Below, piece after piece: positions 6,361 through 47,929 of a DNA stretch of 64,000 nucleotides. This DNA is from Lonicera japonica (taxonomy: Eukaryota > Streptophyta > Magnoliopsida > Dipsacales > Caprifoliaceae), in NCBI GenBank assembly GCA_021464415.1, contig CM038466.1:36610833-36674832 (forward strand). Reading direction: 5' to 3'. Under the pieces are notes generated by a model. That model was not told where the DNA came from. It made no database searches and saw only the letters and a program-made list of their open reading frames with translations. Each line of letters begins with the position of its first letter. Within the stretch, counting starts at the first letter, position 1. The translations under genes were made by a program, and so were the position numbers.

Positions 6361-6475
6361 AAAAAAAAAACACTTAGGAGTAGAGTAGTGTATGAGCATT
6401 GTTTGGAAGCGTGGTATTAAGAGATTGAATAGGATAGAAAACCTAGAACTTAATCCTTTGTTTGAGATAGGAACA

Positions 6476-13757: not shown

Positions 13758-13758
13758 A

Positions 13759-20869: not shown

Positions 20870-21186
20870 TGTAGACACCCCGATCCGTGACCCCCGCAAG
20901 AACCCTAACGACCTTCGAGAACTACTGTTTTTAGGTCCGGGACCCACCCGAGCACCCGAAACTACCCTTGGTGGGTTTGTTGGCCAACAAACATATTTTT
21001 TAGAAAGATTGTCGCACGACATATCACATTGTCGCGTGACAATCCCTGATATGTCGCGCGACAATCATGTCTTGTCGCGCGACAAACCCCTCTGCACCCG
21101 ACCAACCACTTTCTGACACATCGCAGTGTCAGAACCATCACTTCAGCCGTTTGTCGCGCGACAATCATTCCTATGTCGCGCGACAC

Positions 21187-22518: not shown

Positions 22519-22531
22519 GTCTCCCACTTGT
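22519..22531 (-). other. Polypurine tract of Copia C
   Basis: On the minus strand ACAAGTGGGAGAC lies immediately before the 3' LTR. The position and composition are standard for Copia. Confidence 0.8.
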
Positions 22532-22532
22532 A

Positions 22533-25166: not shown

Positions 25167-26527
25167 TGTGAGAATCCGCAAATGCGACCCCCGGGTCTCA
25201 ACCCCTCGTTGGTGGGCGTCTGAAACGTCGGAAAGGATTCCGTTGTTCCATTTGCTTCTATGTGTTGATAATTCATATCGGGTGTCCCTCTATCCTATTT
25301 CTAGATGCAAGAGGGTTCGTTCAGAGTCGCCAGTACGTTTTACGAGAAAACGGACAAAATAGTTGTGTAAGAGGAAAGGCTACAGGTAAGCCTTTCTTTA
25401 CACGTTTGTCTACGAAACCAGGATTCTATAGAGTTCGGGAACTATATTACGGTTTGGGAAGGTGTTAAGCACCCATTCCGCCCTTTCGGTCTCTAGTGGT
25501 TTTATATGTTTACTCTATGTTGGAAAACTTGGATGCTTTTACTGATATTCTACTGCTTTCTGGAAATAACTAATGAAAACCTGATTTTCGAGCGCGTTAG
25601 GAATCTACCACAACTATGTCGCCACTTCGCTTACTAGGACGGGGATCGACCTGCCCGGTCAGGTCGCGGGGTGCGGGGCAGCGCCCCGTTAGAAAAATCG
25701 AGTTTTAAACAAGTCTACAATAAAACTAATATACAAATATCTTATTTAATTACTAGAAGAGACTTTAGTTACCTTCCCGACGATATATATAAGAATAAGA
25801 GAGAGAAAATATAATACGGCAGAGAAGACCTCCGGCGAATATTAGCTTTTCCTCTTAGAAATATTTCCAGCGGTCTGACTCTAGAAGGTGGTACACCGGG
25901 TGCCAAGATTAGATCCGAGACTCTTGCGGAAATAAATGTTATCGCAGATGCTTCCGGGGAAGGCTTAAAGATTAGAAAATATCAGAGAGAATAAGGAATT
26001 TTAGTATAGAAATTGTGGCGAGAAGTTGCCGTCCAGAACCCTTGGGGGTGTTGGCCTATTTATAGTGCTCGGGAGAGATTGTCGCGCGACATTCCCCCAG
26101 AAAGGGCAAGTGTCGCGCGACATATCTCTTTGTCGCGCGACAAACGGCTGAAGTGATGGGTTCTGACACTGTGATGTGTCAGAAAGTGGTTGGTCGGGTG
26201 CAGAGAGGGATTGTCGCGCGACATAGTGGGATTGTCGCGCGACAAGCGGCTGAAGTGATGGCTCCTGACACTGTGATGTGTCAGAAAGTGGTTGGTCGGG
26301 TGCAGAGATAGATTGTCGCGCGACATAGTGGGATTGTCGCGCGACATTCCAATGATTGTCGCGCGACAATGTGATATGTCGTGCGACAATCCTTCATAAA
26401 AAAGGTTTGTTGGCCAACAAACCCACCAAGGGTAGTTTCGGGTGCTTGGGTGGGTCCCGAACCTAAAAACAGTAGTTCTCGAAGGTCGTTAGGGTTCTTG
26501 CGGGGGTCACGGATCGGGGTGTCTACA
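25167..26527 (-). mobile_element. R1 3' LTR
   Basis: It runs TGTGAGAATCCGCAAATGCG to GGTGTCTACA. In the element's direction, U3 holds eight exact TGTCGCGCGACA palindromes and one variant (26080-26387). A TATA-like box (TATTTATA, 26057-26064) follows, then a long R-U5 with the inverted repeat CGACCTG...CAGGTCG and the hairpin GGGGCAGCGCCCC near 25640-25690. It is next to identical with the 5' LTR. Confidence 0.97.
26080..26387. promoter_or_regulatory. Cluster of nine TGTCGCGCGACA palindromes in R1 3' LTR U3
   Basis: Exact 12-bp palindromes start at 26080, 26111, 26131, 26212, 26233, 26314, 26335 and 26357; a variant TGTCGTGCGACA starts at 26376. They lie just upstream (minus strand) of the TATA-like box at 26057. 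Part of the cluster comes from a tandem duplication of about 102 bp, which also repeats the imperfect palindrome CTGACACTGTGATGTGTCAG. The binding protein is unknown. Confidence 0.85.
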
Positions 26528-26560
26528 GACCCTCTCGACTCAAGCTCCTTGCTTGCAAGG
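26528..26560 (-). other. Polypurine tract region of R1
   Basis: On the minus strand GAGTCGAGAGGGTC ends directly at the 3' LTR start. The same block, with small changes, follows the R2 LTR at 19297. This is where the plus-strand primer is expected. Confidence 0.6.
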
Positions 26561-26639
26561 AATTGAGGCGACTGGAAGATACTTCGATTTGTGGCTCCCG
26601 CAAGAACCCTAAGAGAGTGTGCGTATGAAAGAAGTGCTT

Positions 26640-28340
26640 GTGAGTGCCTCCGGAGAGGGCTTGTGCCTGTAGGAAGGACTTACTCTGCCTCTGAAGAGGG
26701 CTTTCGTTACCTCGTTGCCTTTGTTTAGATGGCTTGATTTGCTCTACTTGCCTCAGATGGGAGGACTACCATGCGTGCCTCTCTGGGAGGGCTTAACCTC
26801 AGGTGGGAGGACTACCAATGTGTGCCTCTCTGGGAGGGCTTAACCTCAGGTGGGAGGACTACCATGCGTGCCTCTCTGGGAGGGCTTAACCTCAGGTGGG
26901 AGGACTACCATGCGTGCCTCTCTGGGAGGGCTTTTGATCTGAAAAGAGAAAGAAAATTGCCTCTGGGGAGGGCTTTTGTGAGTAATTTTGCCTCTGGCGA
27001 GGGCTTGTGTTTTGTGATTTGCCTCTAGAGAGGGCTTGTGCCAGTAGAAAGGACTTGTGAGTGATGTTTTGCCTGTAGAAAGGGCTTATGTGAATGGATT
27101 GCCTCCGGAAAGGACTTTCACCTAAAAAGGGCTTAGTGATTGGTTTGCCTCCGCAGAGGGCTTATGTGAATGGATTGCCTCCGGAGAGGGCTTGTGCCTG
27201 TAGAAAGGACTTGTGAGTGATGTTTTGCCTGTAGAAAGGGCTTATGTGAATGGATGCCTCCGGAAAGGACTTTCGCCTAAAAAGGGCTTAGTGATTGATT
27301 TGCCTCCGCAGAGGGCTTATGTGAATGGATTGCCTCCGGAGAGGGCTTGTGCCTGTAGAAAGGACTTGTGAGTGATGTTTTGCCTATAGAAAGGGCTTAT
27401 GTGAATGGATGCCTCCGGAAAGGACTTTCGCCTAAAAAGGGCTTAGTGATTGGTTTGCCTCCGCAGAGGGCTTATGTGAATGGATTGCCTCTAGAGAGGG
27501 CTTGTGCCTGTAGAAAGGACTTGTGAGTGATGTTTTGCTTATAGAAAGGGTTTATGTGAATGGATGCCTCCGGAAAGGACTTTCGCCTAAAAAAGGGCTT
27601 AGTGATTGGATTGCCTCCGCAGAGGGCTTATGTGAATGGATTGCCTCCAAAGAGGGCTTGTGCCTGTAGAAAGGACTTGTGAGTGATGTTTTGCCTGTAG
27701 AAAGGGCTTATGTGAATGGATGCCTCCGGAAAGGACTTTCGCCTAAAAAGGGCTTAGTGATTGGTTTGCCTCCGCAGAGGGCTTATGTGAATGGATTGCC
27801 TCTAGAGAGGGCTTGTGCCTGTAGAAAGGACTTGTGAATGATGTTTTGCCTGTAGAAAGGGCTTATGTGAATGGATGCCTCCGGAAAGGACTTTCGCCTA
27901 AAAAGAGCTTAGTGATTGATTTGCCTCCGCAGAGGGCTTATGTGAATGGATTGCCTCCGGAGAGGGCTTGTGCCTGTAGAAAGGACTTGTGAATGATGTT
28001 TTGCCTGTAGAAAGGGCTTATGTGAATGGATGCCTCCGGAAAGGACTTTCGCCTAAAAAGGGCTTAGTGATTGATTTGCCTCCGCAGAGGGCTTATGTGA
28101 ATGGATTGCCTCCGGAGAGGGCTTGTGCCTGTAGAAAGGATTTGTGAGTGATGTTTTGCCTGTAGAAAGGGCTTATGTGAATGGATGCCTCCGAAAAGGG
28201 CTTTCGATGTGTGGGTGCCTCGAGAAGAGGGCTTTGTGTGCGTAAGTGCCTCGAGAAGAGGGCTTCGTGAATGTAAGTGCCTCGAGAAGAGGGCTTGTGT
28301 TTGCGTGGGTGCCTCGAAAAGAGGCTTGGTTCTCTATAGT
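26640..28340. repeat. Tandem arrays in R1 3' region
   Basis: Three blocks share the core GCCTC...GAGGGCTT. At 26750-26935 about four units of roughly 47 bp (AACCTCAGGTGGGAGGACTA...). From about 27030 to 28190 seven units of about 155 bp, marked by TGCCTGTAGAAAGGACTTGT at about 27194, 27350, 27504, 27661, 27815, 27970 and 28126. From 28195 to 28340 four GTGCCTCGAGAAGAGGGCTT units. Each 155-bp unit is itself made of six GCCTC-type subunits, so this is a higher-order repeat. It occupies the same place as the array in R2 but with different units. Confidence 0.92.
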
Positions 28341-29100
28341 GGCAACTGATGAGAAGCTAAAGAGAGAGGTCTCTGAGGAAAAAGTGCTCATTTGGGAGTT
28401 TTAAAAACCCATTCTAAAAGTTTTGCTTTCTCTGGGAAAAACTGAAAACTTGTTTTGTAAGTTATTTTATTCCAAAAGAGGAGTTTTCACGATGGATTTC
28501 TTGATTTTTGTACTTCGTGCGTAGCAATGATTCAACCGTTTGCTTGTTTCTAAGTCGTTTCTGATTTCATCAAGCTGAGAAGGAAATCTGTTTTGAAGGA
28601 GTCTCTGATCTCTTTGATATTCATTGGCCATTCTTTGAGGCACTTTTGTAAGCCCACATCGTTTTCTGTTTTTCGATGTCCTTATTTCTCCCTCGTTCGG
28701 GGAAGCTTTTCCTGCCTTTTCTGTTTTTGGTCAAGAGCTTCTTTTCCCGTTTGGCGTGATCAGGAGCCTTACTCACCCAAGACGAAGCCCTGAGCCGGTT
28801 TGGCCTAGCTGTCACTCTTGGTGTGGCTCTCCCTGCCACTCTATACAATTCTGTTTCTCTCGCTCACTCTGGGCGCTCATGCGGGATTTTTCTCTTTTCT
28901 ACTCTTTCAATTTTTTCTATTCCCGTCTTATCTGATATTTTCTCATTCTCATTTGCTAGATTTCAGTCTTCTAGAGATCAGAGATTTCTTTGTAGGCTGT
29001 TTGCTCTCGCGATTTGAAGAAACGACTTAGAATATGGCATTTGATATTATCGTGCGAGTGTGTGTTTTTTCTGCATAAAAGTCGAGAAAAACCACCTTGA
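28341..29100. other. R1 3' region spacer
   Basis: Homologous to R2 20131-20869, including the TTTTTCGATGTCCTTATTTCTCCCTC block and GGGCGCTCATGCGGG. No coding region is seen. It contains GCGAGTGTGTGTTTTTTCTG at about 29055, the counterpart of the R3 insertion site in R2. Confidence 0.7.
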
Positions 29101-29520
29101 AGTTCCCCTACTGAAAAATGCCAAGTTTGAGATATGATTGGCCATGCGACAGTTCAATGGAGTAGGTTTTGTCCCACAAGCGGGCTCTTTTCTTCTCATT
29201 CTCTTATTCTCTCTCTAGCTTCTCATTTCTCGAGTTTTCCCGTATCTGGATGCTCAGGGTGTTCTTCGATGCAGTCTCTATTCTAATGACAAGGATGATA
29301 GGGTAGATTGTGACCGCAGTGTGATCTACTAGGATGTGAAGTGCGCTAAAAATGTGCATGCTCGTGTTTGGTGATCTTATTTGAAAGATAATGTATGCTA
29401 TGCATGTACTAGTGAAGTGGTGTTTGAACATGTTCGATAACTTGATATGTAAAAGTATTGCTTGCAGGCTGCAGATACTTTCCATGCTGTTTTGTTGATC
29501 CTGATTCGCAGTTTCCTGCA
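29101..29520 (+). pseudogene. R1 antisense gene 1: promoter and exon 1 remnant
   Basis: Compared with R2 40880-41390, the region keeps the pyrimidine-rich leader (CTCTCTCTAGCT) and an exon-1 trace: GATGCTCAGGGTGTTCTTCG here against GACGCTCAGGGCGTTCTCCG in R2, and a GGGTAGA...GTGGTCTAC-like block. The ATG, the palindromes and the TATA box are gone. Exons 2-5 are deleted. It is a relic. Confidence 0.65.
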
Positions 29521-29559
29521 TGTTTAAACAAACATTAATTAATTCACATAATTATCTCA

Positions 29560-30240
29560 ATAGTAACATCCGATTTTTGGAACTTACATACTTTTACCTT
29601 TCAAACCTTAAGGACTCTCGTAATTTACTCTAAAAAATCGTATAGCTCTCATAACTACCCAAAGTACCCTCAGGTTTTGAAAACTACATATTTTTTCCCT
29701 ATAGGCCCATAACTCTCGTAATTACCCCAAAGTACCCTCAGGTTTTTTTTTAAAAATTACATAATTTTACCCTCTTATTATATAACTCACATAATTACAC
29801 GAAAGAACCCTCAGGTTTTGACATAATTTTACCTTTATAACCCTATATCTCTCGTAATTACACCAAAGTACCCTCAGGTTTGGAAAATTACACAATTTAC
29901 CCTTATAACCCTATATCTCTCGTAATTACACCAACGTACCCTCAAGTTTTGGAAAATTACACAATTTACCCTTATAACCCTATATCTCTCGTAATTACAC
30001 CAAAGTACCCTCAGGTTTGGAAAATTTACACAATTTACCCTTATAACCCTATATCTCTCGTAATTACACAAAAGTACCCTCAGGTTTTGGAAAATTACAC
30101 AATTTTACCCTTATAACCCTATATCTCTCGTAATTACACAAAAGTACCCTCAGGTTTTGGAAAATTTACACAATTTACCCTTATAACCCTATATCTCTCG
30201 TAATTACACCAAAGTACCCTCAGGTTTCCTACACATATTT
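29560..30240. repeat. Tandem array of about 68-bp units in R1
   Basis: Nine to ten units, each with CCCTCAGGTTTTGGAAAATT, ACCCTTATAACCCTATATCT and CTCGTAATTACACC blocks. It is the counterpart of the 69-bp array in intron 1 of the R2 antisense gene (41515-42775). The units here say TATATCTCTCGT where R2 mostly says TATAACTCTCAT, so each array was homogenised separately. The short repeated frames are by-products. Confidence 0.92.
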
Positions 30241-30259
30241 ATATAAAAGTACCCTCGGG

Positions 30260-30870
30260 TTCAATACAGAGTAAAGAAATACATGCTGGTGAAAAATAGG
30301 CCTATAATGACATAAAAAATGATGACCATCAGGCCCCTGCAAAATTGAAAGGAACTAAGTGAGTATTGAAAAAGTGATTTCTTTTGGCAACAATGAACTT
30401 GTCTGTTGGAGAAATGTATGACAAATGATGAGTATAAGTGCATGATTTCTCCGATAAATACACATCTCTTCCTTCCTTCATCCCCACACTTACTCTTTTA
30501 TCTTTGTAGAAACAAAGTCCTCTCACTACATAAATGTTGACTTTTCTTATACCAAAGCTCGAGATGCCTTGGTACCCTCGGAACTCAAGCTTGCCACTCC
30601 CCATACTTCTCTATATGTGGAGTGTAGTGGCATGGACGGCTGACTCGGTAATTCAACTATGCATGGTTTGGCTTTTCTTAGCCCCTCCGGGCTGATATCA
30701 TTCGTTCAATCTGGTGATTGGTGGAGGAAGATCTGGCTGTCGTCCCTTATCAAATGCAATGGTTTCAGTTCGTGGGCTCAGAGCCCTCCGAGGCATAAAT
30801 GAAGCTTAAGTTGCACTGGTGGCTAAGGATACGATGTGGCTTCTTTCCGGGGCTAAGATGGGGTGCTAGA
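30260..30870 (+). pseudogene. R1 antisense gene 2 remnant
   Basis: It aligns at both ends with R2 45610-47086: the leader block TTCCTTCCTTCATCCCCACA, an early coding trace (GACTTTTCTTATACCAAAGC against GATTTTTCTTATGTTGAAAC), and a C-terminal trace reading QMQWFQFVGSEPSEA. The middle of the gene is deleted and frames are broken. No palindrome remains upstream. It supports the reading of the R2 gene C-terminus in a second frame. Confidence 0.7.
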
Positions 30871-30879
30871 TAACAAATG

Positions 30880-31085
30880 TACTGACTTTTGGTGTTCTGG
30901 ACCACCGTTTATGAAGTTTGAAAAACTGCTCTTTTTTATAAAACAAAAAAGTTTTTATAATAATTAAACCGGGCCTGAAGTAACTTCTCAGGTTGCCTAC
31001 GTTCCCCGTGGTATTTCCTCCATAAACAAAAGTGAGTTGGGGCTCAGGTTTACGTAGTTCTGGATTATACATGCTATTGCTTTAA
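30880..31085 (-). other. Conserved post-integrase box of Tat elements (R1)
   Basis: On the minus strand GAACTACGTAAACCTGAGCC is followed after some 40 bases by GAACGTAGGCAACCTGAGAA and CTTCAGGCCCGGTTTAA. The same pair of blocks occurs in R2 at 47175-47295. A GAACTACGT ... ACGTAGGCA pair after integrase is a recurrent feature of Tat/Ogre elements in plants. Its role is not known to me. Confidence 0.7.
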
Positions 31086-31089
31086 TAAT

Positions 31090-31280
31090 AATATTTCTTG
31101 AATGTAGCGTCTGACCATCTACATCTGCGGCTATTACAGCTCTCCTTGTGTTGATTTCTTTAACGATGTACGACCCAGTTCTGAACTTTTCTCTCGGATC
31201 TCTTATCGGCTTCTCTAACCTTTCTCAAAACTACATTGTTCTCACAAATACCCCGAGTCTTCACTTTTCGATTTTAAAGG
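31090..31280 (-). pseudogene. Integrase C-terminal tail left in R1
   Basis: The minus strand gives RLEKPIRDPREKFRTGSYIV and then KEINTRRAVIAADVDGQTLH in one frame. This is the form of the last part of Tat integrases (the segment with a K-F-x-x-N/G-Y-x-V-K pattern followed by a beta-rich D-x-D-G turn). It lies only about 50-60 bases after the gag stop, so the remainder of pol was removed by one internal deletion with a breakpoint between about 31280 and 31333. Confidence 0.7.
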
Positions 31281-31333
31281 CCCCATAATGACGATACACG
31301 GCCTTCTACCGTTTCTCATTTAGCGATGCTAAC

Positions 31334-33144
31334 TCACTTTAGCGGGTTGTTGGCCATATTTGGTCCGCCTGGTGCGGGGATTTTTCCTTCTTCGATTAGA
31401 TCTTGGATGCGGTGTCGGAGGGCTAAACATCTATCTGTGTCATGGCCCACAGATTGGTGGTATAAACAGTTCTCGTTCATCCTCCAAGAAGAAGGGACGG
31501 GATTTGGTGGAGGACGAGGGTTGAGTGGGGTAACCAGGCCCGCATTCTGTAGCAATTCAAGACTTTTGGTCAGGGTTGTGGGGAGGTTGCTGAATTTTCT
31601 ATTTTTATTGGGTTGATATGTATTGGGGGCTTCGGCTTGTATAGGCCACGTTAATTGGGGTTGTTGCTGCTGAAAAGGATTTTGTTGGTACGGATAAGAG
31701 CTTAGCTGGTTTACAACGGGGTGGCTGTGCTCTTCTCAGTATATGAGGCCTTCCTTGTTTGGGTGTCCGCCTTTCTGGCCAACTCTTCTTCTACTTGGGA
31801 TCCCATGCTTAAAAGTGCTCGAAAATGTGGGAACACGTGCTTTCCCATACAAGTCAATACAGCCGGAGTGAAGTTTTTCTGAATTATCTCTAACTGCTCC
31901 TCTTCGTCTGGTCGTTTGGACATCTGGGATGCCAATTCTCTCCAACGGGTAACAAAATCACTGAAGCTCTCTTTCTCACCCTGTTTGGCCATCTCTAAGT
32001 GTTTACGGGTGACCTCCAACTCTTCATTGGACCCGTATTTAGCCATGAATTCCTTGACGATATCCCCCCAAGTTTTTGTGTGGTGCCTCTCTAAATCAAA
32101 AAACCATCTCAGGGCTGCCCCCGTGAGAGTCATATGAAATGCCTGGGCCAACTCAGGTTCTCCACAGCCAGATACTTGCATGGATCGGATATATGATTGC
32201 AGATGTGTTTTTGGGGGCGTGGTTCCAGTAAACTTGGTGATAGATGGGAGTTTGAACCCCTGTGGTAGTCTTGCCTCGGGGTAGAGGGAGAATGCATTCA
32301 TATCAGTAACCTCGTCTGCTCCTTTCATTAGGGAAACTCCCTTCTGCAGGACCCTCATCTGTTCCTTCAGTTTTTTCATTTCTTCACTCTCTTTAGATAC
32401 TTCATCGGGCTGTTCTCGAGCTATAACTGATTCTGCATATACTGCCCGGAGTCGGTTTATATCTGGGTATTCATTGGGAGGGGCTACCATGGCTGGTGGT
32501 AGGACAGGTCCTGCAGGAATTTGTGGCCATTGTGGGTGTTGAGGGTCGAAACCTGGTTGGACTTGGGGTTGCGGCCAGATGATGGGTGGCTCTTGTTGCT
32601 GATAAGTAGGGCCGGAGTCCGGGGCCCATTGGTTCTGGTTATTGGGGTCAGTTTGAATGGGGCCTGTTGGGATAGGACCTGTTTGCTGTGGGTTGGTGCC
32701 TTGGACTGGGGGGAGTACTTGTGATGATTGCCCTTGATTCGGATCTCGATTCGGTGGTAGTCGTTCAAACCCCGGTGGCGCAGTTCGTTCGGCTGACCAT
32801 CCTTCTATTCGAACCCGGGTGTTCTGCTGCTCAGTAGATATGCTGGCCAGGCTTTGACTAACGGTTATTAATAGGCGATGCAATTCTTCTAGGGTAGGCG
32901 GAGCCCTCGGTACCTCTGCTAGATTCGGATCAACTGCTTGGATCTCTGAGTCATTCAGATTGGAAGTCGACATAGTCGGAGTGCTCGGTCGAACTAATCT
33001 ACCGGTGCAGTCTCTTCCTGCCCAACCTTCCAGACTGTAGTCGTAGGGCTGTAGATATACCACATAGCGAAGATGAAGGAAGACTGAGGTGTGATTCATT
33101 TCTGCCAAGAGAAACCACGAAGAAAGAAAAACAACGAAAACCAA
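31334..33144 (-). pseudogene. R1 gag with one frame change
   Basis: The frame is open from 33144 to 31711 (477 codons); MSTSNLNDSE at 32973 is a plausible real start. A Pro/Gln-rich N-terminal half is followed by a coiled-coil-like stretch (SEEMKKLKEQMRVLQKG) and a retrotransposon gag domain around residues 290-410 (KFTGTTPPKTHLQSYIRSM, LTGAALRWFFDLERH, TWGDIVKEFMAKYGS, FSDFVTRWRELASQM). Near 31735 the frame changes; the second frame continues to a stop at 31334 and carries CLYHQSVGHDTDRCLALRHR, the C-x2-H-x4-5-H-x4-C-like knuckle seen in Tat gag proteins. Gag would build the particle and bind RNA. Whether a shorter product works is unknown. Confidence 0.88.
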
Positions 33145-34094
33145 GTTTCGGGTGTTTATAAAGACACATCAACAACAACTTGAGTGAATTCCCGGTGGGA
33201 GTTTAGGGTAGGCAGCAAAGTGCTCCTTGGGTTACCCTACTTATCCCGAATTTTTTTTTAAAAAACTCATCTTTTGATTTTATGAAAATTGGGAATATCT
33301 CTCCTCTTGAGTTGCTTTTCATGGGAGATGTACCGGGGAAAGTCACAACGAGCTGATCTCGTTGTAAATTTCTATGACGGAGGTTGGTCAGCCTCCGGCC
33401 GTACTCGCCAATATCTGGTGGAGATATACATGACAAGGCCCTATGCGGTACGAACTCCTCACGGTTGATAAAAAAGATAAGAGTGTTCTATCTTGACTCT
33501 TCCTATATGCAACGCAGGTGTAATGCAAGGTGAAGGCTTCAGGCTCCCCCCTATTTGGCAAGACCTCGCGATATACCCCAGGGGCGGGTACGTGCAAGAA
33601 TCTTTTGATATACTTCCCGGGTACGTGAGTGTTCTCGTCACTCGATATACCTCGGGGGCGTACTTGGCCAAGGAGAGTGGAAGTAAATGCTTTCGGTTTA
33701 TGTTGGCCCAAGCAAGCCAACTCCCTACTCACTTATAATACTTCCGAGGGTTTGGGGTAAAAATCACACTCGTAAGATCCATGCATGAATAGTGATGTGC
33801 GTGAAAACAAGAGTTTTCAAAAGATTTAATTACAGATATCTTATCTTTGAGGTGTATTTTGAAAACGCCATTTTTATTTGAAAACATATTTCTTTACAAT
33901 CAAATACAACAGAAAGGGGAAATCCTAAACATATGTCTATGTCAATGAATGGACACTACTGCGCCTCTAGGTCAGGTCAACAATAAAATCCAGGCGCCAC
34001 GTCAGGGGGCAAGTAGGGAAAGCAGTAAAAGCATGCATATCAACATATTTATAAACAAAAAAAAAAACCACACATAAGAGCCTAGTTCTCTCGG
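33145..34094 (-). other. R1 5' leader
   Basis: About 950 bp between primer site and gag. It contains short minus-strand frames (for example 33732-33388) without a recognised domain. Ogre elements often have an extra gene before gag; none is identifiable here. Confidence 0.6.
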
Positions 34095-34112
34095 TCCCCA
34101 GCAGAGTCGCCA
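34095..34112 (-). other. Primer-binding site of R1, Tat/Ogre type
   Basis: The minus strand reads TGGCGACTCTGCTGGGGA, one base from the 5' LTR end. This is the form used by Tat/Ogre elements, close to the 3' end complement of a tRNA-Arg. It fixes the element's direction as minus, matching gag. Confidence 0.85.
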
Positions 34113-34113
34113 C

Positions 34114-35472
34114 TGTGAGAATCCGCAAATGCGACCCCCGGGTCTCAACCCCTCGTTGGTGGGCGTCTGAAACGTCGGAAAGGATTCCGTTGTTCCATTT
34201 GCTTCTATGTGTTGATAATTCATATCGGGTGTCCCTCTATCCTATTTCTAGATGCAAGAGGGTTCGTTCAGAGTCGCCAGTACGTTTTACGAGAAAACGG
34301 ACAAAATAGTTGTGTAAGAGGAAAGGCTACAGGTAAGCCTTTCTTTACACGTTTGTCTACGAAACCAGGATTCTATAGAGTTCGGGAACTATATTACGGT
34401 TTGGGAAGGTGTTAAGCACCCATTCCGCCCTTTCGGTCTCTAGTGGTTTTATATGTTTACTCTATGTTGGAAAACTTGGATGCTTTTACTGATATTCTAC
34501 TGCTTTCTGGAAATAACTAATGAAAACCTGATTTTCGAGCGCGTTAGGAATCTACCACAACTATGTCGCCACTTCGCTTACTAGGACGGGGATCGACCTG
34601 CCCGGTCAGGTCGCGGGGTGCGGGGCAGCGCCCCGTTAGAAAAATCGAGTTTTAAACAAGTCTACAATAAAACTAATATACAAATATCTTATTTAATTAC
34701 TAGAAGAGACTTTAGTTACCTTCCCGACGATATATATAAGAATAAGAGAGAGAAAATATAATACGGCAGAGAAGACCTCCGGCGAATATTAGCTTTTCCT
34801 CTTAGAAATATTTCCAGCGGTCTGACTCTAGAAGGTGGTACACCGGGTGCCAAGATTAGATCCGAGACTCTTGCGGAAATAAATGTTATCGCAGATGCTT
34901 CCGGGGAAGGCTTAAAGATTAGAAAATATCAGAGAGAATAAGGAATTTTAGTATAGAAATTGTGGCGAGAAGTTGCCGTCCAGAACCCTTGGGGGTGTTG
35001 GCCTATTTATAGTGCTCGGAGAGATTGTCGCGCGACATTCCCCAGAAAGGGCAAGTGTCGCGCGACATATCTCTTTGTCGCGCGACAAACGGCTGAAGTG
35101 ATGGGTTCTGACACTGTGATGTGTCAGAAAGTGGTTGGTCGGGTGCAGAGAGGGATTGTCGCGCGACATAGTGGGATTGTCGCGCGACAAGCGGCTGAAG
35201 TGATGGCTCCTGACACTGTGATGTGTCAGAAAGTGGTTGGTCGGGTGCAGAGATAGATTGTCGCGCGACATAGTGGGATTGTCGCGCGACATTCCAATGA
35301 TTGTCGCGCGACAATGTGATATGTCGTGCGACAATCCTTCATAAAAAAGGTTTGTTGGCCAACAAACCCACCAAGGGTAGTTTCGGGTGCTTGGGTGGGT
35401 CCCGAACCTAAAAACAGTAGTTCTCGAAGGTCGTTAGGGTTCTTGCGGGGGTCACGGATCGGGGTGTCTACA
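34114..35472 (-). mobile_element. R1 5' LTR
   Basis: 1359 bp, differing from the 3' LTR only by a missing G in CTCGGAGAG (about 35018) and a missing C in the ATTCCCC run (about 35042). The palindrome cluster is at 35026-35333 and the TATA-like TATTTATA at 35004-35011, all on the minus strand, so transcription should start near 34975 and run into gag. Confidence 0.97.
35004..35333 (-). promoter_or_regulatory. R1 LTR promoter with TATA box and palindrome cluster
   Basis: Eight exact TGTCGCGCGACA sites and one TGTCGTGCGACA variant lie within 308 bp, the nearest 14 bp upstream of the TATA-like box. This is the promoter expected to make R1 genomic RNA. All sites are intact in this young copy, in contrast to R2. 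Confidence 0.75.
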
Positions 35473-36808: not shown

Positions 36809-38427
36809 CTATCTACAGCAAAATAACATATGCAAACATTTAATATGCTTATTTATAAAAAATTCCTACTATGTCTTACACACAATTGTCCCAATAGGAC
36901 ATAGTAGGTCCAAGATCCATATTACACAAGGTATTAAGAAAGCTTTGGCTTTTCACTTAAACTTTGTTAATTAGGTAAGCAACATTTGTTAATTACATCC
37001 TATGTAATTCTTGGTTTGTTGAGTTTTACATCTTATGTTTCGGCTTCTCAACACTTTGCCTCAAGGCCCAAAACCGTTTTGATGGCCCGTGAAATCAAAC
37101 CAATACTTTTCTGATTTATGGATGTCCGACTTCCATACTATTAATTTATGATGATTTAAGATAACCCCGTTTTGGCAGGCGTCTTCTAAAATAATCATAA
37201 AATTAATAGTTATCAGTATTGGAAAGGCACAAATAATTTCATTTGTTCTAGGGACATAAATATGCAGTCTCACAATAATACAACAGAATATTTAAACATG
37301 CATCAACCAAAAATATGTGATATAGTATGGCCAGAGAAATAAAGCTACTAATTAACTATGCTCTCCCATCCTTTGTAGCTTTGGACATTCCAAAGTTCTT
37401 GGCTATCTTCTCTTGTGATGAGGGATCCTCCATCTTCTATGCGAGGTAATTATACAATCAATTGTACATCCTAATACAAGAGACTAGTAATTGAAACTAG
37501 TAATTGAAATTACATTGCAAAACAAAAAAACGACACGCAGGCCGTATTTATATATTACAATAAAAACAAGACGACACGCAGGCCGTATTTAGTTTGGCCA
37601 TACTATATCACTATAAATAATAACCCTGCAAGTTAGTATTATCCCATAACACAACACATTGCATACTCATAAAAGGAAACATAAATTTAATCAATTATTA
37701 AATAAACAATTAGGGGTCGAGGGGCAACGCCCCCGCGGGGTTTGGGGCAGCGCCCCAACGGGGTCGAGGGGCAGCGCCCCCGCGGGGTTTGGGGCAGCGC
37801 CCCAACCGGGGTCCGGGGGGTGGACACCCCGGCGGCGGTCCCGCTGGCTCGGTGTATGACCTGCAAGAGAATCATACTTCTGCCACCGTGGAAAATTTGA
37901 ACGATTTCAAATTATTTCCTCCAGAAACGTGTCTGATCTTATCAGACAGATTCGTCTAGACTAATCACATTAATCTGCCCTATCTCGTTAATCAAATCAA
38001 CGTGAACGAACCCGATAGCCGTGATCTCATCAAGTCTATCAGATTGCGTAAACCCTAAACGAACGATTCTGAAAAACGCTAAACATGATAATTGCGGAAT
38101 TAAAATCACAACAGCATATGATGAACCCTAATCAAAAACGACTTAACAGAATCATGAACATGTCGATAACAGTCATACAATAATCACGTTTTTGACATAT
38201 CAGATCTCTATTAATCAGATTATAAAGGGACATATCGTATATGTAAACTGATTAACGAAAACAGAAACATGCTACAGAAAACGATTAACCCATTAATCGA
38301 TATTACTAAAACCTAGCATGATACTAAAATCCGAATATGAAATTAATCGAAATTTTAAACGAGAACAGATCTTCAAGTTATAAAACGATTATAATCATGA
38401 TCGAAATTAAAGAACAGCAATAACCTT
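36809..38427 (-). other. Copia C 5' leader
   Basis: About 1.6 kb of AT-rich, non-coding leader between primer site and gag. It contains a GC-rich repeat (37713-37806) and, at about 37530-37600, two copies of the block ACGACACGCAGGCCGTATTT. A long leader is usual for Copia elements with long LTRs. Confidence 0.75.
37713..37806. repeat. GC-rich tandem repeat (2 x 47 bp) with GGGGCAGCGCCCC hairpins
   Basis: Two near-identical 47-bp units of the form GGGGTCGAGGGGCA...CCCGCGGGG...TTTGGGGCAGCGCCCCAAC. Each GGGGC-AGC-GCCCC can fold into a 5-bp GC hairpin with a 3-base loop. The GC content stands out sharply from the AT-rich leader. The same hairpin word occurs in the R-family LTRs near 25675, 34620 and 40305. 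Confidence 0.85.
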
Positions 38428-38439
38428 GCTCTGATACCA
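38428..38439 (-). other. Primer-binding site of Copia C
   Basis: The minus strand reads TGGTATCAGAGC, a perfect 12-base match to the plant initiator tRNA-Met site, one base away from the LTR end at 38441. Confidence 0.95.
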
Positions 38440-38440
38440 C

Positions 38441-39772
38441 TGTTATGAAATTAGGGCAGTAATCATGCATCGCATACACTAATTTACGCACTAATCATTG
38501 AATCCTATGATCTATGCAGTTCAATAAAATCGACAGATGACATACCTTAATCGAGATTTGATGTCAATGAAACGAACAGGATGGATCTGATCCTTCTGTT
38601 GTTGTCGTCCTTAGCGTAGAAAACACGACGCCTCTACGGTATGCACACACGAACGAGATGAGATCTTGCTTGGTGTACTAGCGCCCTCTAGGGTTCTCTC
38701 TGCTATTTCGAATTTTCTTGCCTCTCTCAATTTCATTAACGGCCAAGAAGAACAAAGGTTCCCTTTTATAAGGGAACCCTAGTGAGAACCCTAAGCAACA
38801 AACGAACTGGGCCCAAGTCCAACTTGGCCCGTTTTAATTCGTTTTGATCCAACTCGTTTTGGTGTGCGACCCTGTAGGTTTTACACTCTTTGGCCGTACA
38901 ATTAAAACCCGTTTTATTATACGAACAGTAAGCGGTTTCTAGTAAAACATTACTATTATCCAAAGGGTATAAAGGTCAAAAACGACACAACCTTAAATTG
39001 ATATTTCACACATTAACTCCTTTTGTCAATCGATATCTAGATTGAACACAAGACTAGGCAAGTGTCATTCTTGTATAGTTCAATCTTTATTTCTTGATCT
39101 CTAAGTATAATTAATCCAAAACAAATGACATCTCATTTGTGCATGGCCATGCAAATATTAATTACACTTATCAAGGGGCCCAACGATATCTCTCTCAATA
39201 TATGAGAGTGACAAATCCCATCTTGATCAACCACATACCTCTACATAGTTCATAGTATGCTCGGTCATCATCTTTATAATTACTCGGTCAAGAGCAACGT
39301 TTGATAATGCCTGACATGCTAATCCCTATGTTGGTAACCATGGCGATCTCAGGTCTGAGGATAATACGATATCACAAATGGGGAACATCACTGATGACAT
39401 TATGTAACACTCCTCGCAGTGTCCCCAAAGCGGGTCAGTCCAATACTTTGTTCCCTAACAAGTATCAGTATGTTCAGCTTGATATCTCCATATCCATGAC
39501 TTGTGGAACATAGTCATCAGCTGACCCATACTCTAATCATTATATCAATGTGATCCTAGGTTATTGATACATGATTAGGGACATCTAAACAATATTATTA
39601 TTACATTACTAGCATCCCACAATCTAGTCACGTACTTGATGAACTAGTATTAATAAATATTATTTACAAGAGATTATAAAGTAAAATAAATAAACTTTAT
39701 TAATAAAAATAAGCATAAGATATCCAAGTACAAATCATAATCTATGAATAGTCCTAGGACATATCTCTTTCA
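38441..39772 (-). mobile_element. 5' LTR of Copia C
   Basis: 1332 bp, TGTTATGAAATT to CTCTTTCA on the plus strand. It is the same length as the 3' LTR and looks identical. Outside it the R3 LTR resumes with GACAAACCCC. Confidence 0.95.
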
Positions 39773-40819
39773 GACAAACCCCTCTGCACCCGACCAACCA
39801 CTTTCTGACACATCACAGTGTCAGGACCCATCACTTCAGCCGTTTGTCGCACGACATACAGGAATGTCGCGCGACACATGCCTTTTTTGGGGAAATGTCG
39901 CGCGACAATCTTCCCCGAGCACTATAAATAGGCCAACACCCCCAAGGGTTCAAGACGGCAACTTCTCGCCACAATTTCTATACTAAAATTCCTTATTCTC
40001 TCTCATATTTTCTAATCTTTAAGCCTTCTCCGGAAGCATCTGCGATAACATTTATTTCCGCAAGAGTCTTGGATCTAATCTTGGCACCCGGAGTGCCACT
40101 TTCTAGAGTCAGACCGCTGGAAATATTTCTAAGAGGAAAAGCTAATATTCGCCGGAGGTCTTCTCTGCCATATTATATTTTCTCTCTCTTATTCTTATAT
40201 ATATCGTCGGGAAGGTAACTAAAGTCTCTTCTAGTAATTAAATAAGATATTTGTATATTAGTTTTATTGTAGACTTGTTTAAAACTCGACTTTTCTAACG
40301 GGGCGCTGCCCCGCACCCCGCGACCTGACCGAGCAGGTCGATCCCCGTCCTAGTAAGCGAAGTGGCGACATAGTTGTGGTAGATTCCTAACGCGCTCGAA
40401 AAACAGGTTTTCATTAGTTATTTCCAGAAAGCAGTAGAATATCAGTAAAAGCATCTAAGTTTTTCAACATAGAATAAACATATAAGACCACTAGAGACCG
40501 AAAGGGCGGAATGGGTGCTTAACACCTTCCCAAATCGTAATGTAGTTCCCGAACCCTATAGAATCCTGGTTTCGTAGACAAATGTGTAAAGAGAGGCTTA
40601 TCTGTAGCCTTCCCTTTTACACAACTATTTTGTCCGTTTTCTCGTAAAACGTACTGGCGACTCTGAACAAACCCTCTTGCATCTAGAAATAGGATAGAGG
40701 GACACCCGATATGAATTATCAACACGTAGAAGCAAATGGAACAACAGAATCCTTTCCGATGTTTCAGACGCCCACCAACGGGAATGAGAACCCGGGGGTC
40801 GCATTTGCGGATTCTCACA
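39773..40819 (+). mobile_element. R3 solo LTR, right part with promoter
   Basis: It continues the LTR cut at 21186. It holds several palindromes (exact ones at 39865-39876 and 39896-39907, with a CpG-decayed TGTCGCACGACA at about 39845), a TATA box TATAAATA at 39923-39930, the R-U5 hairpin region near 40300 and the LTR end at 40819. It would fire rightwards into the R2 antisense genes. Confidence 0.9.
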
Positions 40820-40824
40820 GTGTG

Positions 40825-41142
40825 CGGTTTTTAGCAATCTTTTCGAAAACTGCTTCTCTGAAGTACCCCTGCAGGAGATAAAATGAGACAAAGGTCAAAA
40901 AATCAGGGGAGGGAGGTGATTGTCGCGCGACACTTCGGTGGCCAGGCTCTTTGTCGCACGACAATGTGGCCATTTGTCGCGCGACAAACTGCTCCACTAT
41001 ATAAGCCCCTTGCTGAGCTCATTCCACCTCATTCTCTCCTTCCTCTTTCTCTCTCTAGCTCTCTTTCTCTCTTCTCCCAAGCGCGGAAGCCCTGCCGCTT
41101 TTCTGACTTTTTACAATTTTCTCATACTCTACTTACACTCAG
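40825..41142 (+). promoter_or_regulatory. Promoter and leader of R2 antisense gene 1
   Basis: Palindromes: exact TGTCGCGCGACA at 40921 and 40975, and a TGTCGCACGACA variant at 40952. A TATA box TATATAAG at 40998-41005 follows 11 bp after the last one. A pyrimidine-rich leader (CTCTCTCTAGCTCTC) precedes the ATG at 41143. Arrangement and spacing mirror the LTR promoter of the same family. It lies on the plus strand, opposite to R2 genomic transcription. Confidence 0.7.
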
Positions 41143-44100
41143 ATGGATCCTGCACAGCCAGATAGATTAGAGGGTGACCAGGAGGAGGTCACTTTTACTG
41201 ACGCTCAGGGCGTTCTCCGGTGCAGCCCTCACCATGATGACTGGGAGGACCTTGATTGGTACGGTGAGGATGGGGTAGACCGCGGTCGGGCGGTGGTCTA
41301 CCGAGACGTTACCCGGGCTGCTCCGATTCCGGACGTTCTGTGGCTCTTGATGGAGCATGTTTCTCACGAGATTCGTTGACGATCTCTGGTATGTCTTCTT
41401 TTCGTGTTTTTATCTATTTTGTTATTTCTGTCGTTTCCTGTATGTATTTTAAACAATGTTAGTATGCATGTCTGCCTAGAAATAACGTCCGATTTAGTAA
41501 ACACATACTTTTTACCTGTGATACCTCTTAGGTTTTGGAAAATTACATAATTTACCCCATAGCCCTATAACTCTTAAAATTACACCAAAGTACCCTTAGT
41601 TTTGGAAAACTACATAATTTACCCCTATAACCCTATATCTCTCATAATTACACCAAAGTACCACGAGGTTTGAAAAATTACATAATTTACCCTTATAACC
41701 CTATATCTCTCAGAATTACACCAAAGTACCCTCAGGTTTTGAAAAATTACATAATTTACCCTTATAACCTTATATCTCTCATAATTACACCAAAGTACCC
41801 TCAGGTTTTGGAAAATTACATAATTTACCCCTATAACCCTATAACTCTCATAATTACACCAAAGTACCCTCAGGTTTAGAAAATTACAATTTTTACCCTT
41901 ATGACCCTATAACTCTCAAAATTACACCAATGTATCCTCAGGTTTGGAAAATTACATAATTTACCCTTATGACCCTATAACTCTCATAATGACACCAAAG
42001 TACCCTCAGGTTTTGGAAAATTACATAATTTACCCTTATGACCCTATAACTCTCATAATTACACCAAAGTAACCTCATATTTTGAAAAACTACATAATTT
42101 ACCCTTATGACCCTATGACTCTCATAATTACACCAAAGTACCCTCAAGTTTTGGAAAATTACATAATTTACCCTTATGACCCTATAACTCTCATAATTAC
42201 ACCAAAGTACCCTCAGGTTTTGGAAAATTACATAATTTACCCCTATAACCCTATAACTCTCATAATTACACCAAAGTACCCTTAGGTTTGGAAAATTACA
42301 ATTTTTAGCCTTATGACCCTATAACTCTCATAATTATACCAATGTACCCTTAGGTTTGGAAAATTACATAATTTACCCTTATGACCCTATGACTCTCATA
42401 ATTACACTAAAGTACCCTCAGGTTTTGGAAAATTACATAATTTACCCTTATGACCCTATAACTCTCATAATTACACCAAAGTACCCTCAGGTTTTGGAAA
42501 ATTATATAATTTACCCCTATAACCCTATAACTCTCATAATTATACCAAAGTACCCTCAGGTTTGGAAAATTACAATTTTTACCCTTATGACCCTATAACT
42601 CTCATAATTACACCAATGTACCCTCAGGTTTGGAAAATTACATAATTTACCCTTATGACCCTATAACTCTCATAATTACACCAAAGTACCCTCAGGTTTT
42701 GGAAAATTTACATAATTTACCCTTATGACCCTATAACTCTCATAATTACACCAAAGTAACCTCATAATCCTGTACTCGTTCTTTTGTCTACAATGGGTTG
42801 GTCGTGGTTGGGGTTCCCCCAACACCACTTCTTTAGAGTGGCGACAGGCACCGGCCCTTGTCCAGGAGTTGCTCCTTGCGACTCCTTTCGGTTCTTTTTT
42901 TGATGCCCTTTCGGAGCGGGTATCTAGGGCAGCTGTGTTGGTGTCGGCTCTGGCCTGTCACTAGTTGGACACCACCCATACATGACGATGACCCCCCTCA
43001 ATTTATTTGCTTTGACCGGGATTCCCTCAGGGGGTGTCCCTATCCAGATTGACGTCGCCTTGCGTCTGACAGCGGAGGGCATCGTTGGTGCTCTAGGATG
43101 GTTTCCAGAGCGACGGAGTTCCGGTGATATGATTCCTCGGGCTGTTTTGGTCACGCGCCTGGCGATGGAGAGAACCAGATTGATTACTTCGGGAGCGCTG
43201 ATGACCCGCCAGGAGGTGCATCAGTATGCTCGTGTCCTCCTGTTACTGATGCTCCATGACTTGTTCGAGGCTCGTGGGAGGGACCCGGCCCATCTCTGGT
43301 GGCTGCCCTATCTTAGAGATTTCAGCATCATGTTCGATTATGACTGGGGGGCTTTATTCTGGTTGTTCTATATGACGCTATGGACCAGGTTTCTCGTCAT
43401 TTAGCCCTGAATCTCAAGGGTTTTTCTTTGCTGTGGGAGGTATACACTTTTGTTCCTTTATCTTTGTTTCAGTCCTGTACATATTATCCGTTGATTATTT
43501 GCTGATATTCTTTATGTTTCCTCTTCAGAGTTGGTTCGTGGCGTATACACGTCTGGGTCGTGCCCAGGTGGATCTCCTCGTTGAGAACGAGGACCAGTTT
43601 TTTTTTATCCGCCGATTCATCGCGGGGAACTATAGGACTCCCTACGTATATCAGACTCGGGAGATCGGAGCTGCTGCCGTCCATGACTTGCTAGAGGAGC
43701 AGGTAATTATCTTTAGTATTCTTTCTTTTCAAAATAGATAAATGGTAAATAAAATATAAATCACTGAAGTAAAATTTTTTGTTTTTGTTCAGATTGAGTG
43801 GGCCCTCTAGGGTGATCTGGGTCTTCATTTCGGATATGGCCGTGCTCTGACTGCCTCGAGGTCTAGGCGGCTTATTAGGGACGAGTACGGCCTTCACTTC
43901 TATTTGGGCGAGAGAGTTATTCGCTAGCATACACCGGCCCAGTGGCCTAAAGTTCCCCTGTTTCCGCCAGTTCTGATGAGGCGGACGGGTGAGATTGACC
44001 TTATGACGGTGCAGGCGTTGGTCGACGGGCTCGGTTTTCAGACTTTCACCGAGGAAGGAGATTATGCTGCCTTCGCCGCCCGTTACTTGATGAGGGAGCC

Positions 44101-45231: not shown

Positions 45232-45700
45232 TCTTCGGTGATTTGCCCTATGGCTTCGGTCCAGTCAACGGGGCCTCTCAACCAGCAGTTCCTTCTCACC
45301 CGGATGTCCCAGCGGTAGATCCTACGCCAAAGGAGGGTTCGGGCGATAGTGGTAGCGTGTCGAAGTGAGCTAGGATAGATTAGCTTTCTTTTTCCTGCAT
45401 TTAGTTAGTTCTGACAGACATGTATTTATTTAGACATGTAGACAGTTTTTTAGTCCTTTTTTGAAAACTGTTCTTTTATTGGATTTATGAAAAATCTTTA
45501 TTTGTGTCTGATGATATACATTTATTCTCTGTCTGTGAAAGATATATATATATATGAGTCATTAATTTAGGAGCCATACCTTGTAACGTAGTGACATTCG
45601 GGATTCCTGCAAAAGAACAAAGTGAGAACAAGAATGCATTCCAAAAGTGATTCTTTTGGCAAGAATGACTCTTATGTGTAAGAAAAGCAAGAACAGAGTG
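45232..45700 (+). other. Spacer between the two R2 antisense genes
   Basis: It holds the 3' end of gene 1 and a stretch with TTTTTAGTCCTTTTTTGAAAAC. No further coding region is recognisable. Confidence 0.5.
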
Positions 45701-45710
45701 ACAACAAATG

Positions 45711-45830
45711 GGATTGTCGCGCGACAATCCCTCCTGGACATGGGTTTGTCGCGCGACAAACAGGTACATGACACTCTTTTTTGCTATAAATACACCCATC
45801 TTCCTTCCTTCATCCCCACACCTTCCAAAA
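45711..45830 (+). promoter_or_regulatory. Promoter of R2 antisense gene 2
   Basis: Two extended perfect palindromes: GGATTGTCGCGCGACAATCC (45711-45730) and GTTTGTCGCGCGACAAAC (45744-45761). A TATA box TATAAATA (45785-45792) lies 26 bp further, and the ATG is at 45831 after a pyrimidine-rich leader. It is the clearest example of the family's palindrome-TATA arrangement. Confidence 0.75.
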
Positions 45831-47086
45831 ATGTCTTCTTATCGCACAAATTTTGATTTTTCTTATGTTGAAACCCGAGATGCTCTGATATCTTCTGAGA
45901 GTGGTTTGAACTTTGGTGCCTTTAGCCCTTTAGCGGGCTGGTGCCATCGTCCTGTAGATTTTTCGTTTCTGTTAGGTGCTTTATATTCCTAGAGTCCTGT
46001 GGATCATCTTTTCCGCTTTGGACTAGATGAGCTCTGTCCGACTTATGAGGAGTTTTTCTGGCTGTTGCGTTCTGACGCCCGTCTCCCGATGGCAGTTCCT
46101 ATAGAAGAAATTAGTCCTCGAGATATGTTGATTGCCTTGTTAGCCATTCCTCAAGTGGCATGTGATGGTTTTATTATCGACGGGCTTCTTGACCTCCATA
46201 AAATGGTGAGGTTTTTTCATCGTTACGAAGAGAAAGTTTCTTATAGTGTGGGGCGTACTGCGGTGGTCTTGATCTGTCTTGTTTCTGATATGTTACTGGT
46301 GACGGGCTCTTCCCGTGTTGATTCGACTATTCTGAGTCTGATTTACCAGGCTAGAAATGGGGAGTCTATAGTGCCGATCGTTCTTGCAGAGACTTTGAAT
46401 GGCCTAGATGATCTTCAAAGGGGAGCCTCACATTTCCTTAGGGGAAGCCCGCGTTTGCTATATATGTGGCTGTTGGAGCGTTTCCGATCGGTGGGTTTTA
46501 ATGGGGTGCGGCTTGACAATCCGATGCATTTTTTTCGTCGTCCCCTCTTTGGGGCTTTGACCATGTCTTCCTCTGATTGGACGGTTTGGTTTTTGGAGAG
46601 CTTTCGGGCTATCCGGTGGAACATTCCTTGGTGGAAGCTGAGGGTGATGGTGCTTAGTACAGGGGGTCAGAACTATGTTCGGCTCCGCGGGCTCTGGTTT
46701 ACCTCCTTTTATCTCCCAGGACGTCTCCTTCGTCAGTTTAACATTCCTCAGGACATTCCCCTTGGTCTGAACAACTTCTCCTCAGAGTCTAAATTTGTGA
46801 CCCCGCATGTTTCTTTATCGGTAGAGAGGATGTGGCATGCTCGACTAACTCGTCAGTTCAATTATGCCCGTTTTGGTATTACCAGGCCCCTCAGGGCTGA
46901 CTTTATCCGCTCTTGCTGGCAATCTCTGGAAGGAGAACTGATTGATGACCCCTTCCAAATGGAGTGGTTTCGATTTATGGATCCGAGCCTACAGAGAAGA
47001 GTATTGTCCTTGCGTACCAGATCCTTGATGAGGCTCGAATTGATTTGGCTACTGAGGACCCAGTGTGGCCAACCCCTAGGGATTAG
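45831..47086 (+). pseudogene. R2 antisense gene 2: DUF7745-like protein
   Basis: An ATG at 45831 (MSSYRTNFDFSYVETRDALI) opens a frame that continues past one TAG at 45990-45992 for about 380 codons. Words: HLFRFGLDELCPTYEEFFWL, VAPIEEI-like PMAVPIEEISPRDML, SIVPIVLAETLNGLD, SPRLLYMWLLERF, NIPWWKLRVM. This layout resembles plant proteins with the DUF7745 domain, which often accompany retroelements; I am only moderately sure of that name. Near 46980 one base seems to be missing: the other frame continues GSEPTEKSIVLAYQILDEAR to a stop at 47084-47086, and R1 has a matching GSEP trace. Function unknown. It is antisense to R2, 600 bp downstream of gene 1, with its own promoter. Confidence 0.7.
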
Positions 47087-47660: not shown

Positions 47661-47929
47661 AAGGGTCCTTAACCACGTTGCGATGTCGGGAATGGAGGTT
47701 GAGGGAAGAATTGTAAAGATATAACCTTATAGTGAATCGTGATGAGAACTGAGCCTACTTATATAACATGATTGCCCAACCGGCAATCCAGCAACAAGTG
47801 ATAGATGCCCAACAAATAGATGGAGCATTTCAGGTTATACACGATCATTTGGCTACGGAAGCCGAATACAGTGGGTATAAACTTGGGACCGATGGTGGGA
47901 TTTGAGTCTAGGATAGACTAGTAGTACTG

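Follow-up and report, generated by a model that had tools for sequence, protein, structure and literature searches.

A 12-bp palindrome, TGTCGCGCGACA, was found in phased arrays upstream of three TATA promoters in a retrotransposon family of the honeysuckle Lonicera japonica cv. Sijihua (PMC9130202), namely the promoter in the long terminal repeat (LTR) and one promoter for each of two antisense genes. The family is assigned to the Tat clade (Ogre-type, Ty3/gypsy) by its predicted domains. The window analyzed here is a stretch of 64,000 nucleotides (C4:36610833-36674832), and genome-wide motif counts come from a scan of 886,079,548 bp in 967 contigs. We consider it probable, at about 0.72, that these arrays are shared operators of one trans-acting DNA-binding factor at all three promoters.

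The window contained 27 exact copies of TGTCGCGCGACA against 0.01 expected, and 38 sites with at most two mismatches against 0.45 expected. Genome-wide, 29,561 exact copies were counted, whereas the reversed string occurred once. These counts speak against a chance origin, and the single copy of the reversed string also speaks against plain CpG-rich composition. The site holds three CpGs and is flanked by A/T pairs on both sides (WWTGTCGCGCGACAWW); positions -2, -1, +1, and +2 were A or T in 106, 102, 101, and 110 of 114 distinct contexts, respectively. VCGCGB, which we take to be the CAMTA site consensus, was considered and rejected, as the strict form does not fit either CGCG of the site. 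The preliminary description had placed the palindrome upstream of TATA boxes, and the genome bore this out: TGTCGCGCGACA was followed by TATAWA at 8 to 35 bp 3,658+3,552 times, compared with 0+1 for the control.

Both antisense promoters in the window belong to R0, an old element of Tat/Ogre type that lies on the minus strand. Its 3' LTR lies at the left (right edge 19296), followed rightward by tandem repeats (~19.3-20.9 kb), later insertions, antisense gene 1, and antisense gene 2. Antisense promoter 1 (40921-41003, plus strand) carries palindromes at 40921, 40952 (one mismatch), and 40975, with a TATA box at 40998. Antisense promoter 2 (45710-45790, plus strand) carries two extended perfect palindromes 32 bp apart, of 22 bp (distal, 45710-45731) and 18 bp (proximal, 45744-45761), with a TATA box at 45785. 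A decayed array in U3 of R0's 3' LTR (18971-19156, minus strand) retains one exact site, four sites with one mismatch, and one with two. Inside R0 sits a plus-orientation solo LTR of the same family (20870-40819; target-site duplication GTGTG at 20865-20869 and 40820-40824), which is split by a Copia element and has palindromes at 21010-21185 and 39845-39907 and a TATA box at 39923.

Nested within that Copia element is another member of the family, R1 (25167-35472, minus strand; LTRs 25167-26527 and 34114-35472; target-site duplication GACAA), in which only gag was found. R1 is very young, because its LTRs differ by no mismatch over 1,361 aligned columns, with two gaps. The array in U3 of its 3' LTR (26080-26388, minus strand) and that of its 5' LTR (35026-35333, minus strand) each hold eight exact sites and one with a single mismatch, and the TATA box follows at 15 and 14 bp, respectively. 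The window scan (at most two mismatches) found no palindrome between the LTRs of R1, while both LTR arrays were kept; it is by this palindrome scan of the window that R1 is judged to lack antisense promoters of the palindrome type.

These coordinates agree with the palindrome-to-TATA gaps given earlier, of 11 bp (40975-40986 to 40998), 26 bp (45747-45758 to 45785), 15 bp (39896-39907 to 39923), and 14 to 15 bp in the R1 LTRs. The single site per R1 LTR described there is in fact an array, and of the two extended palindromes, the proximal one was correctly given as 18 bp but the distal one is 22 rather than 20 bp long. The palindrome does precede the LTR promoter and both antisense promoters of the family, but not within the same element copy, since the LTR site named (39896) lies in the solo LTR and the antisense promoters named lie in R0.

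A broader sample was taken from 20 element 3' halves (L005-L024) chosen from the genome-wide palindrome-TATA matches; because the loci were picked by such a match, the presence of sites in them is biased, whereas their absence elsewhere is not. All 250 of 250 sites (at most two mismatches) fell in three clusters per locus and none elsewhere, with 44 at antisense promoter 2, 59 at antisense promoter 1, and 147 in the LTR, compared with a mean of 4.5 sites in composition-only shuffles of the same loci. The alternative raised with the preliminary description, that the palindromes lie equally often at random positions of the family, was thus not borne out in these halves. One of the 60 clusters, the antisense-2 cluster of L022, is a neighboring LTR piece, so antisense promoter 2 was seen in 19 of 20 loci. 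Each locus had 9 to 16 sites, 4 to 11 of them in the LTR, the total of L022 including the stray LTR piece. Two gag-pol halves had no site outside the LTR.

Three layouts made up most of the TGTCGCGCGACA-to-TATAWA matches. The LTR layout has a gap of 15 to 16 bp before TATAAATA (1,889+1,903 genome-wide; 3,792 on both strands), the antisense 1 layout a gap of 11 bp before TATATA (563+588; 1,151), and the antisense 2 layout a gap of 26 to 28 bp before TATAAATA (510+533; 1,043, with at least two of the 100 places listed being other arrays). Gaps of 17 to 25 bp occurred 72+66 times, and the 100 such places listed were, by eye, largely antisense-2 copies just under 26 bp and LTR subfamilies with a gap of 17 bp. 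Within the 20 loci, the LTR gap was 15 bp in 19 and 16 bp in one; the antisense 1 gap was 11 bp in 18 and 10 bp in one, with no TATA box in one; and the antisense 2 gap was 26 bp in 13, 27 bp in three, and 28 bp in two, with none in two.

The distances between sites were also restricted. Neighboring sites within 40 bp (at most two mismatches) were 20 to 23 or 29 to 32 bp apart in 165 of 165 cases, across 102 distinct spacers. Among exact pairs genome-wide, 8,257 were spaced at 20 to 23 bp, 26 at 24 to 28 bp, 4,827 at 29 to 32 bp, and 257 at 33 to 37 bp, the listed examples of the last class being 33 or 34 bp. The spacing permits two and three helix turns and excludes two and a half. LTR subfamilies with other spacers (L010, L047, and L048) kept the 20-22 and 30-32 bp spacings.

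Conservation was higher in the palindromes than in the spacers, with a clear excess for the LTR and antisense promoter 1 and a less clear one for antisense promoter 2. At antisense promoter 1, the mean pairwise divergence was 0.044 in the palindromes versus 0.311 in the spacers (21 sequences), and only 5 of 20,000 random block sets were as low. In the LTR (20 sequences), the TATA-proximal palindrome diverged by 0.050, compared with 0.325 upstream and 0.239 in the gap (Mann-Whitney p 6e-5), and the TATA block by 0.024. CpG decay was seen in 25 of 368 cells of the palindromes versus 120 of 733 elsewhere, the cells not being independent; the LTR palindrome scored here was the next-to-last site, whereas the LTR divergence figures refer to the proximal one. 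Among singly changed sites, 48 of 63 changes were CpG transitions, as would be expected of sites that become methylated after insertion. In Lonicera macranthoides, the N-terminus of the annotated protein LguiA_007186 (MGLSRDT...VCRATN...FFAINTPIF) reads as a translated antisense-2 promoter with both palindromes and the TATA region; translated in its three frames, the palindrome gives XSRDX, CRAT, and XVARX. As judged from the protein sequence, this N-terminus suggests that a second species has this promoter too.

Taken together, the near-fixed TATA distance, the dyad symmetry, the helical phasing, and the conservation argue for an operator on which protein would bind cooperatively along one face of the DNA. 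In the mechanism we propose, a single sequence-specific DNA-binding factor would recognize TGTCGCGCGACA / WWTGTCGCGCGACAWW as its operator, most likely as homodimers bound side by side on one helix face. The arrays would provide shared upstream control of the LTR promoter, which yields the genomic RNA, and of the promoters of the two antisense genes. The young R1, with arrays in its LTRs and no palindromes in between, is most simply explained by a factor that acts in trans; non-autonomous derivatives could then keep the LTR array alone. Sites upstream of TATA boxes are often activating, and recently transposed copies still carry the arrays; on these grounds, the factor appears most likely to activate all three promoters jointly. 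Because each site has three CpGs, the factor may work best on unmethylated sites. The coordination by one factor advanced in the preliminary description is thus partly supported by a shared motif that occurs in thousands of copies, is conserved over its spacers, is phased, and is retained in R1; we give the two-way feedback circuit described with it less weight.

Several observations weigh against this proposal. At antisense promoter 2, the palindromes diverged by 0.081 versus 0.247 for the spacers (20 sequences, the window included and L022 dropped), a difference that was not significant, as 1,691 of 20,000 random sets of blocks gave values at least as low. Between groups of sites, the intervals of 70 to 81 bp show no clean phase relationship. 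All copies go back to a small number of master elements, so that neither the pair counts nor the alignment cells are independent, and part of the phasing could reflect common descent or have been propagated by tandem duplication or conversion. Symmetry was not visibly restored after mutation, given that just 3 of 27 doubly changed sites were symmetric. The expected TATA box is absent for antisense 1 in L014 and for antisense 2 in L022 and L024, and the TATA-proximal antisense-2 palindrome of L024 has decayed past two mismatches. Finally, the TATA gap is unequal among the promoters (11, 15, and 26 bp), with values that are not all one helical turn apart.

The family and its antisense genes were characterized from predicted domains. 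A long family member, read in two stretches (L025 and L005), encodes a gag with G-patch domains together with, in Tat order, reverse transcriptase, RNase H, a second RNase H, and integrase. Its pol in L025 shows RVT_1 at 180-339, an RNase H-like domain at 403-533, RVT_3 at 591-703, an integrase zinc domain at 804-855, and rve at 873-969; a second RNase H (aRH) between RNase H and integrase is present, as in the Tat clade. The sequence after the 5' LTR is GTGGCGACTCTGCTGGGGAC..., and a tRNA-Arg primer binding site is an Ogre-type trait; a tRNA scan of the window returned no genes. Copies on C1 at 9.83-9.85, 9.99-10.00, 13.46-13.48, and 15.54-15.56 Mb read LTR(+), antisense 2(-), antisense 1(-), LTR(+) over ~17 kb. 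Three different tandem-repeat arrays were observed within this one family, with units of ~155, 69, and 63 bp: 26945-28330 in the 3' region of R1, 41555-42814 in the intron of antisense gene 1, and 19486-20031 in the 3' region of R0.

Antisense gene 1 (41143-43404, plus strand) has exon 1 from the ATG at 41143, a repeat-filled intron, and a plant-mobile-domain (PMD) region at 42928-43404. It is probably spliced, and its frames are interrupted in this copy. A relative, L005:2803-3540, matched PF10536 above the cut-off (E 1.6e-17), whereas the window frame had no Pfam match at E <= 1; by reading, a downstream frame of the gene 1 region ends in basic stretches resembling a nuclear localization signal (NLS). 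Antisense gene 2 (45831-47086, plus strand; ATG 45831) is interrupted in this copy and gave a PMD match at E 7.2e-5, with further gene 2 matches at E 1.6e-5 and 3.5e-5, all below the curated cut-off. The product of this gene in L010 is 87% identical to LguiA_007186. Antisense gene 1, and weakly gene 2, are therefore predicted to encode PMD proteins. At C8:2656690-2673737 there is a cluster of four PMD matches, of which three are strong (308-379 bits) and one contains stops; these may be host counterparts (MAIN/MAIL-like) of the antisense proteins.

As far as the sequences go, the factor may be encoded by the host or by the element. A host transcription factor exploited by the element is quite plausible, though we put it below even odds. 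The half site resembles TTTGTCG, the core of sites of the INDETERMINATE DOMAIN (IDD) zinc-finger factors and the first seven bases of their consensus TTTGTC(G/C)(T/C)(T/a)(T/a)T (PMC7349898), and Sirevirus boxes are scored mainly as stress-factor sites (PMC2829016). R1, moreover, would need a factor in trans. The eighth IDD base still fits the palindrome, but the last three do not. IDD sites are not known to have dyad symmetry, which counts against such a binder.

Tentatively, the binder may instead be an antisense PMD protein that regulates its own genes and the LTR, in the manner of the VANC arrays or of the Tax/HBZ logic discussed below. The 12-mer is longer and stricter than the usual plant factor site, and this strictness favors a self-encoded binder. 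So does its exact occurrence far above chance and its confinement to the family where examined (the 20 loci and 50 listed places of the 29,561), as do the PF10536 match of antisense gene 1, the downstream frame ending in NLS-like stretches, and the placement of both antisense genes under the same motif as the LTR. In Arabidopsis main and mail1 (PMD) mutants, the down-regulated genes are enriched for a promoter motif (PMC7156037). On the other hand, no report of DNA binding by a PMD turned up, with no search aimed at it; a PDB search that used antisense gene 2, the domain of gene 1, and an alignment of that domain as queries yielded one match at E 0.57 and otherwise none, and thus no solved relative; and Sireviruses have similar boxes with no mention of such antisense genes in the available text (PMC2829016). 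That the antisense PMD proteins bind the arrays as a self-encoded regulon, with phased operators both in the LTR and ahead of the antisense genes themselves, seems rather unlikely to us as it stands.

Two further explanations would dispense with a bound protein. The palindromes might act as RNA, pairing with one another in the 3' part of the genomic RNA for dimerization, packaging, or small-RNA hairpins. Every transcribed copy is indeed located 3' of pol in the genomic RNA, any two exact copies are complementary to each other, and palindromic LTR regions of maize Sireviruses are reportedly linked to small interfering RNAs. Of 176 neighboring pairs in 22 loci, however, 85 had both partners exact, 63 had one changed, 24 had both changed in a noncomplementary way, and 4 in a complementary way, and pairing leaves the TATA distances in three promoters and the 10-bp phasing unexplained; we regard this role as improbable. 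The arrays could also be a passive by-product of tandem duplication and conversion inside LTRs, carried along by amplification. They do hold tandem duplications of ~100 bp, and the copies stem from few masters. Yet the same motif recurs in three different promoter contexts, its CpGs decay less than their surroundings, and it is kept although a hand-picked set of 29 distinct LTR-proximal spacers have on average just 54% in common, which leaves the passive origin the least probable of these readings.

A bound operator has precedents, the closest being the repeated motif (RM) boxes of Sireviruses. These are palindromes, 8 to 32 per element, that lie shortly before a conserved TATA box in the LTR; they are CpG-rich and conserved within diverging sequence as here, and a second cluster lies upstream of an extra gene, there ENV outside the LTR (PMC2829016). 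The honeysuckle element likewise has more than eight palindromes per locus, with an array ahead of the TATA box in the LTR and further clusters in front of both antisense genes. Sireviruses, however, are Ty1/copia elements, whereas the honeysuckle element has the Ty3/gypsy domain order and dual RNase H. A CGG-CCG core is present in 12 of 13 Sirevirus motifs (all but Tnd-1), whereas TGTCGCGCGACA holds neither CGG nor CCG; and the Sirevirus extra gene is a sense ENV for which, in the text available, no internal promoter was conclusively identified (PMC2829016), whereas here the boxes precede two antisense TATA promoters. The honeysuckle boxes are helically phased. The preliminary description had known of no identical binding site, and this stands for the exact 12-mer, as an exact-string literature search turned up only work on a chicken gene; the kind of site is not new, given the palindromic boxes of Sireviruses (PMC2829016). 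No palindrome common to LTR and antisense promoters was described in the literature searched, which covered few subscription papers, and the extension of palindromic boxes to antisense promoters of another superfamily seems new. A U3 frame crossing the array was also searched against 5.8 billion proteins with the aim of finding the array in other species, and none of 115 candidates reached E <= 0.001; the two-site palindrome pattern was found in no viral contig.

VANDALs are Mutator-like DNA transposons, and in this respect the honeysuckle element, an LTR retrotransposon, differs from the VANC system. The VANC targets in VANDALs resemble the present arrays in being dense, family-specific motif arrays in noncoding parts of elements that encode extra proteins (PMC5735166, PMC10398659). 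The VANC21 motifs are, however, non-palindromic and in a single orientation, and their binding has been demonstrated in vivo and in vitro (PMC5735166, PMC10398659), whereas the honeysuckle sites are putative operators. In a VANC-type anti-silencing system, the motif is bound by a protein of the element that removes DNA methylation.

Ogre/Tat and Retand elements share with the honeysuckle family dual RNase H, a long tandem-repeat region between pol and the 3' LTR, and antisense open reading frames, and the available text of these papers does not mention a motif common to LTR and antisense promoters (PMC6317226, PMC11963269, PMC7264820). A PMD is found, as here, in 57% of the Ogre elements (PMC6317226). 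In Retand, the antisense proteins carry TRP28, whereas PF04195 (TRP28 / Transposase_28) had no match in the honeysuckle antisense frames scanned; near PF04195 matches, no palindrome was found at any of 20 loci (the best 20 of 75, ~1.5 kb on each side). Grande gene23 is likewise an antisense gene between pol and the 3' LTR with its own promoter, and its product is nuclear; the accessible text mentions no motif shared with the LTR (PMC7264820). The honeysuckle arrangement of repeated U3 control sites together with an antisense gene also resembles that of human T-cell leukemia virus type 1 (HTLV-1). In HTLV-1, the 21-bp repeats of U3 work with Tax, and the antisense gene HBZ feeds back on sense transcription. 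HTLV-1 differs in being a retrovirus with unrelated proteins and sites, and feedback in the honeysuckle family would be hypothetical; HBZ is also mentioned in PMC11963269.

Other features were noted in and around the arrays. A second perfect palindrome of 18 to 20 bp around TGTTGGCCAACA lies in U3 upstream of the array (26404-26423, 35349-35368, and 20975-20992). In 5 of 22 LTRs it precedes the first array site by exactly 32 bp, and six more have a form two changes away at 32 to 33 bp; in L006, L007, L009, L019, L020, and L021, the first array site, TGTCGCGCGACA-like, lies 32 bp before the next in place of TGTTGGCCAACA. Between palindrome groups, U3 of L005 has an imperfect inverted repeat, CTGACAC-N6-GTGTCAG, and the L010 subfamily version, CTGACTC-N6-GAGTCAG, has both arms altered (by reading; the pattern scan did not capture it). 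Elsewhere in the window, a plant C/D-box small nucleolar RNA, snoR71 (RF00097, 47.2 bits; 6857-6963, minus strand), lies between repeated ends at 5600-6361 and 13758-14510, apparently those of another LTR element. Just past antisense gene 2, a frame at 47912-48394 (plus strand) resembles, by eye, a chromovirus-type integrase (zinc-binding part and start of the core) and is probably another nested element.

Antisense genes of the Tat lineage are frequent and of unknown function (PMC7264820, PMC11963269). If the self-encoded regulon were true, it would give these long-unexplained Tat/Ogre genes a function, switching element transcription on or off and relieving or imposing host silencing in trans, including that of non-autonomous copies. 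A single 12-bp site, arrayed in phase ahead of three TATA promoters, offers a probe with which the factor could be identified, and this probe could tie the antisense genes to the control of genomic RNA. Together with the Sirevirus boxes, these results suggest that both superfamilies of plant LTR retrotransposons contain palindromic arrays beside LTR promoters and beside extra genes.

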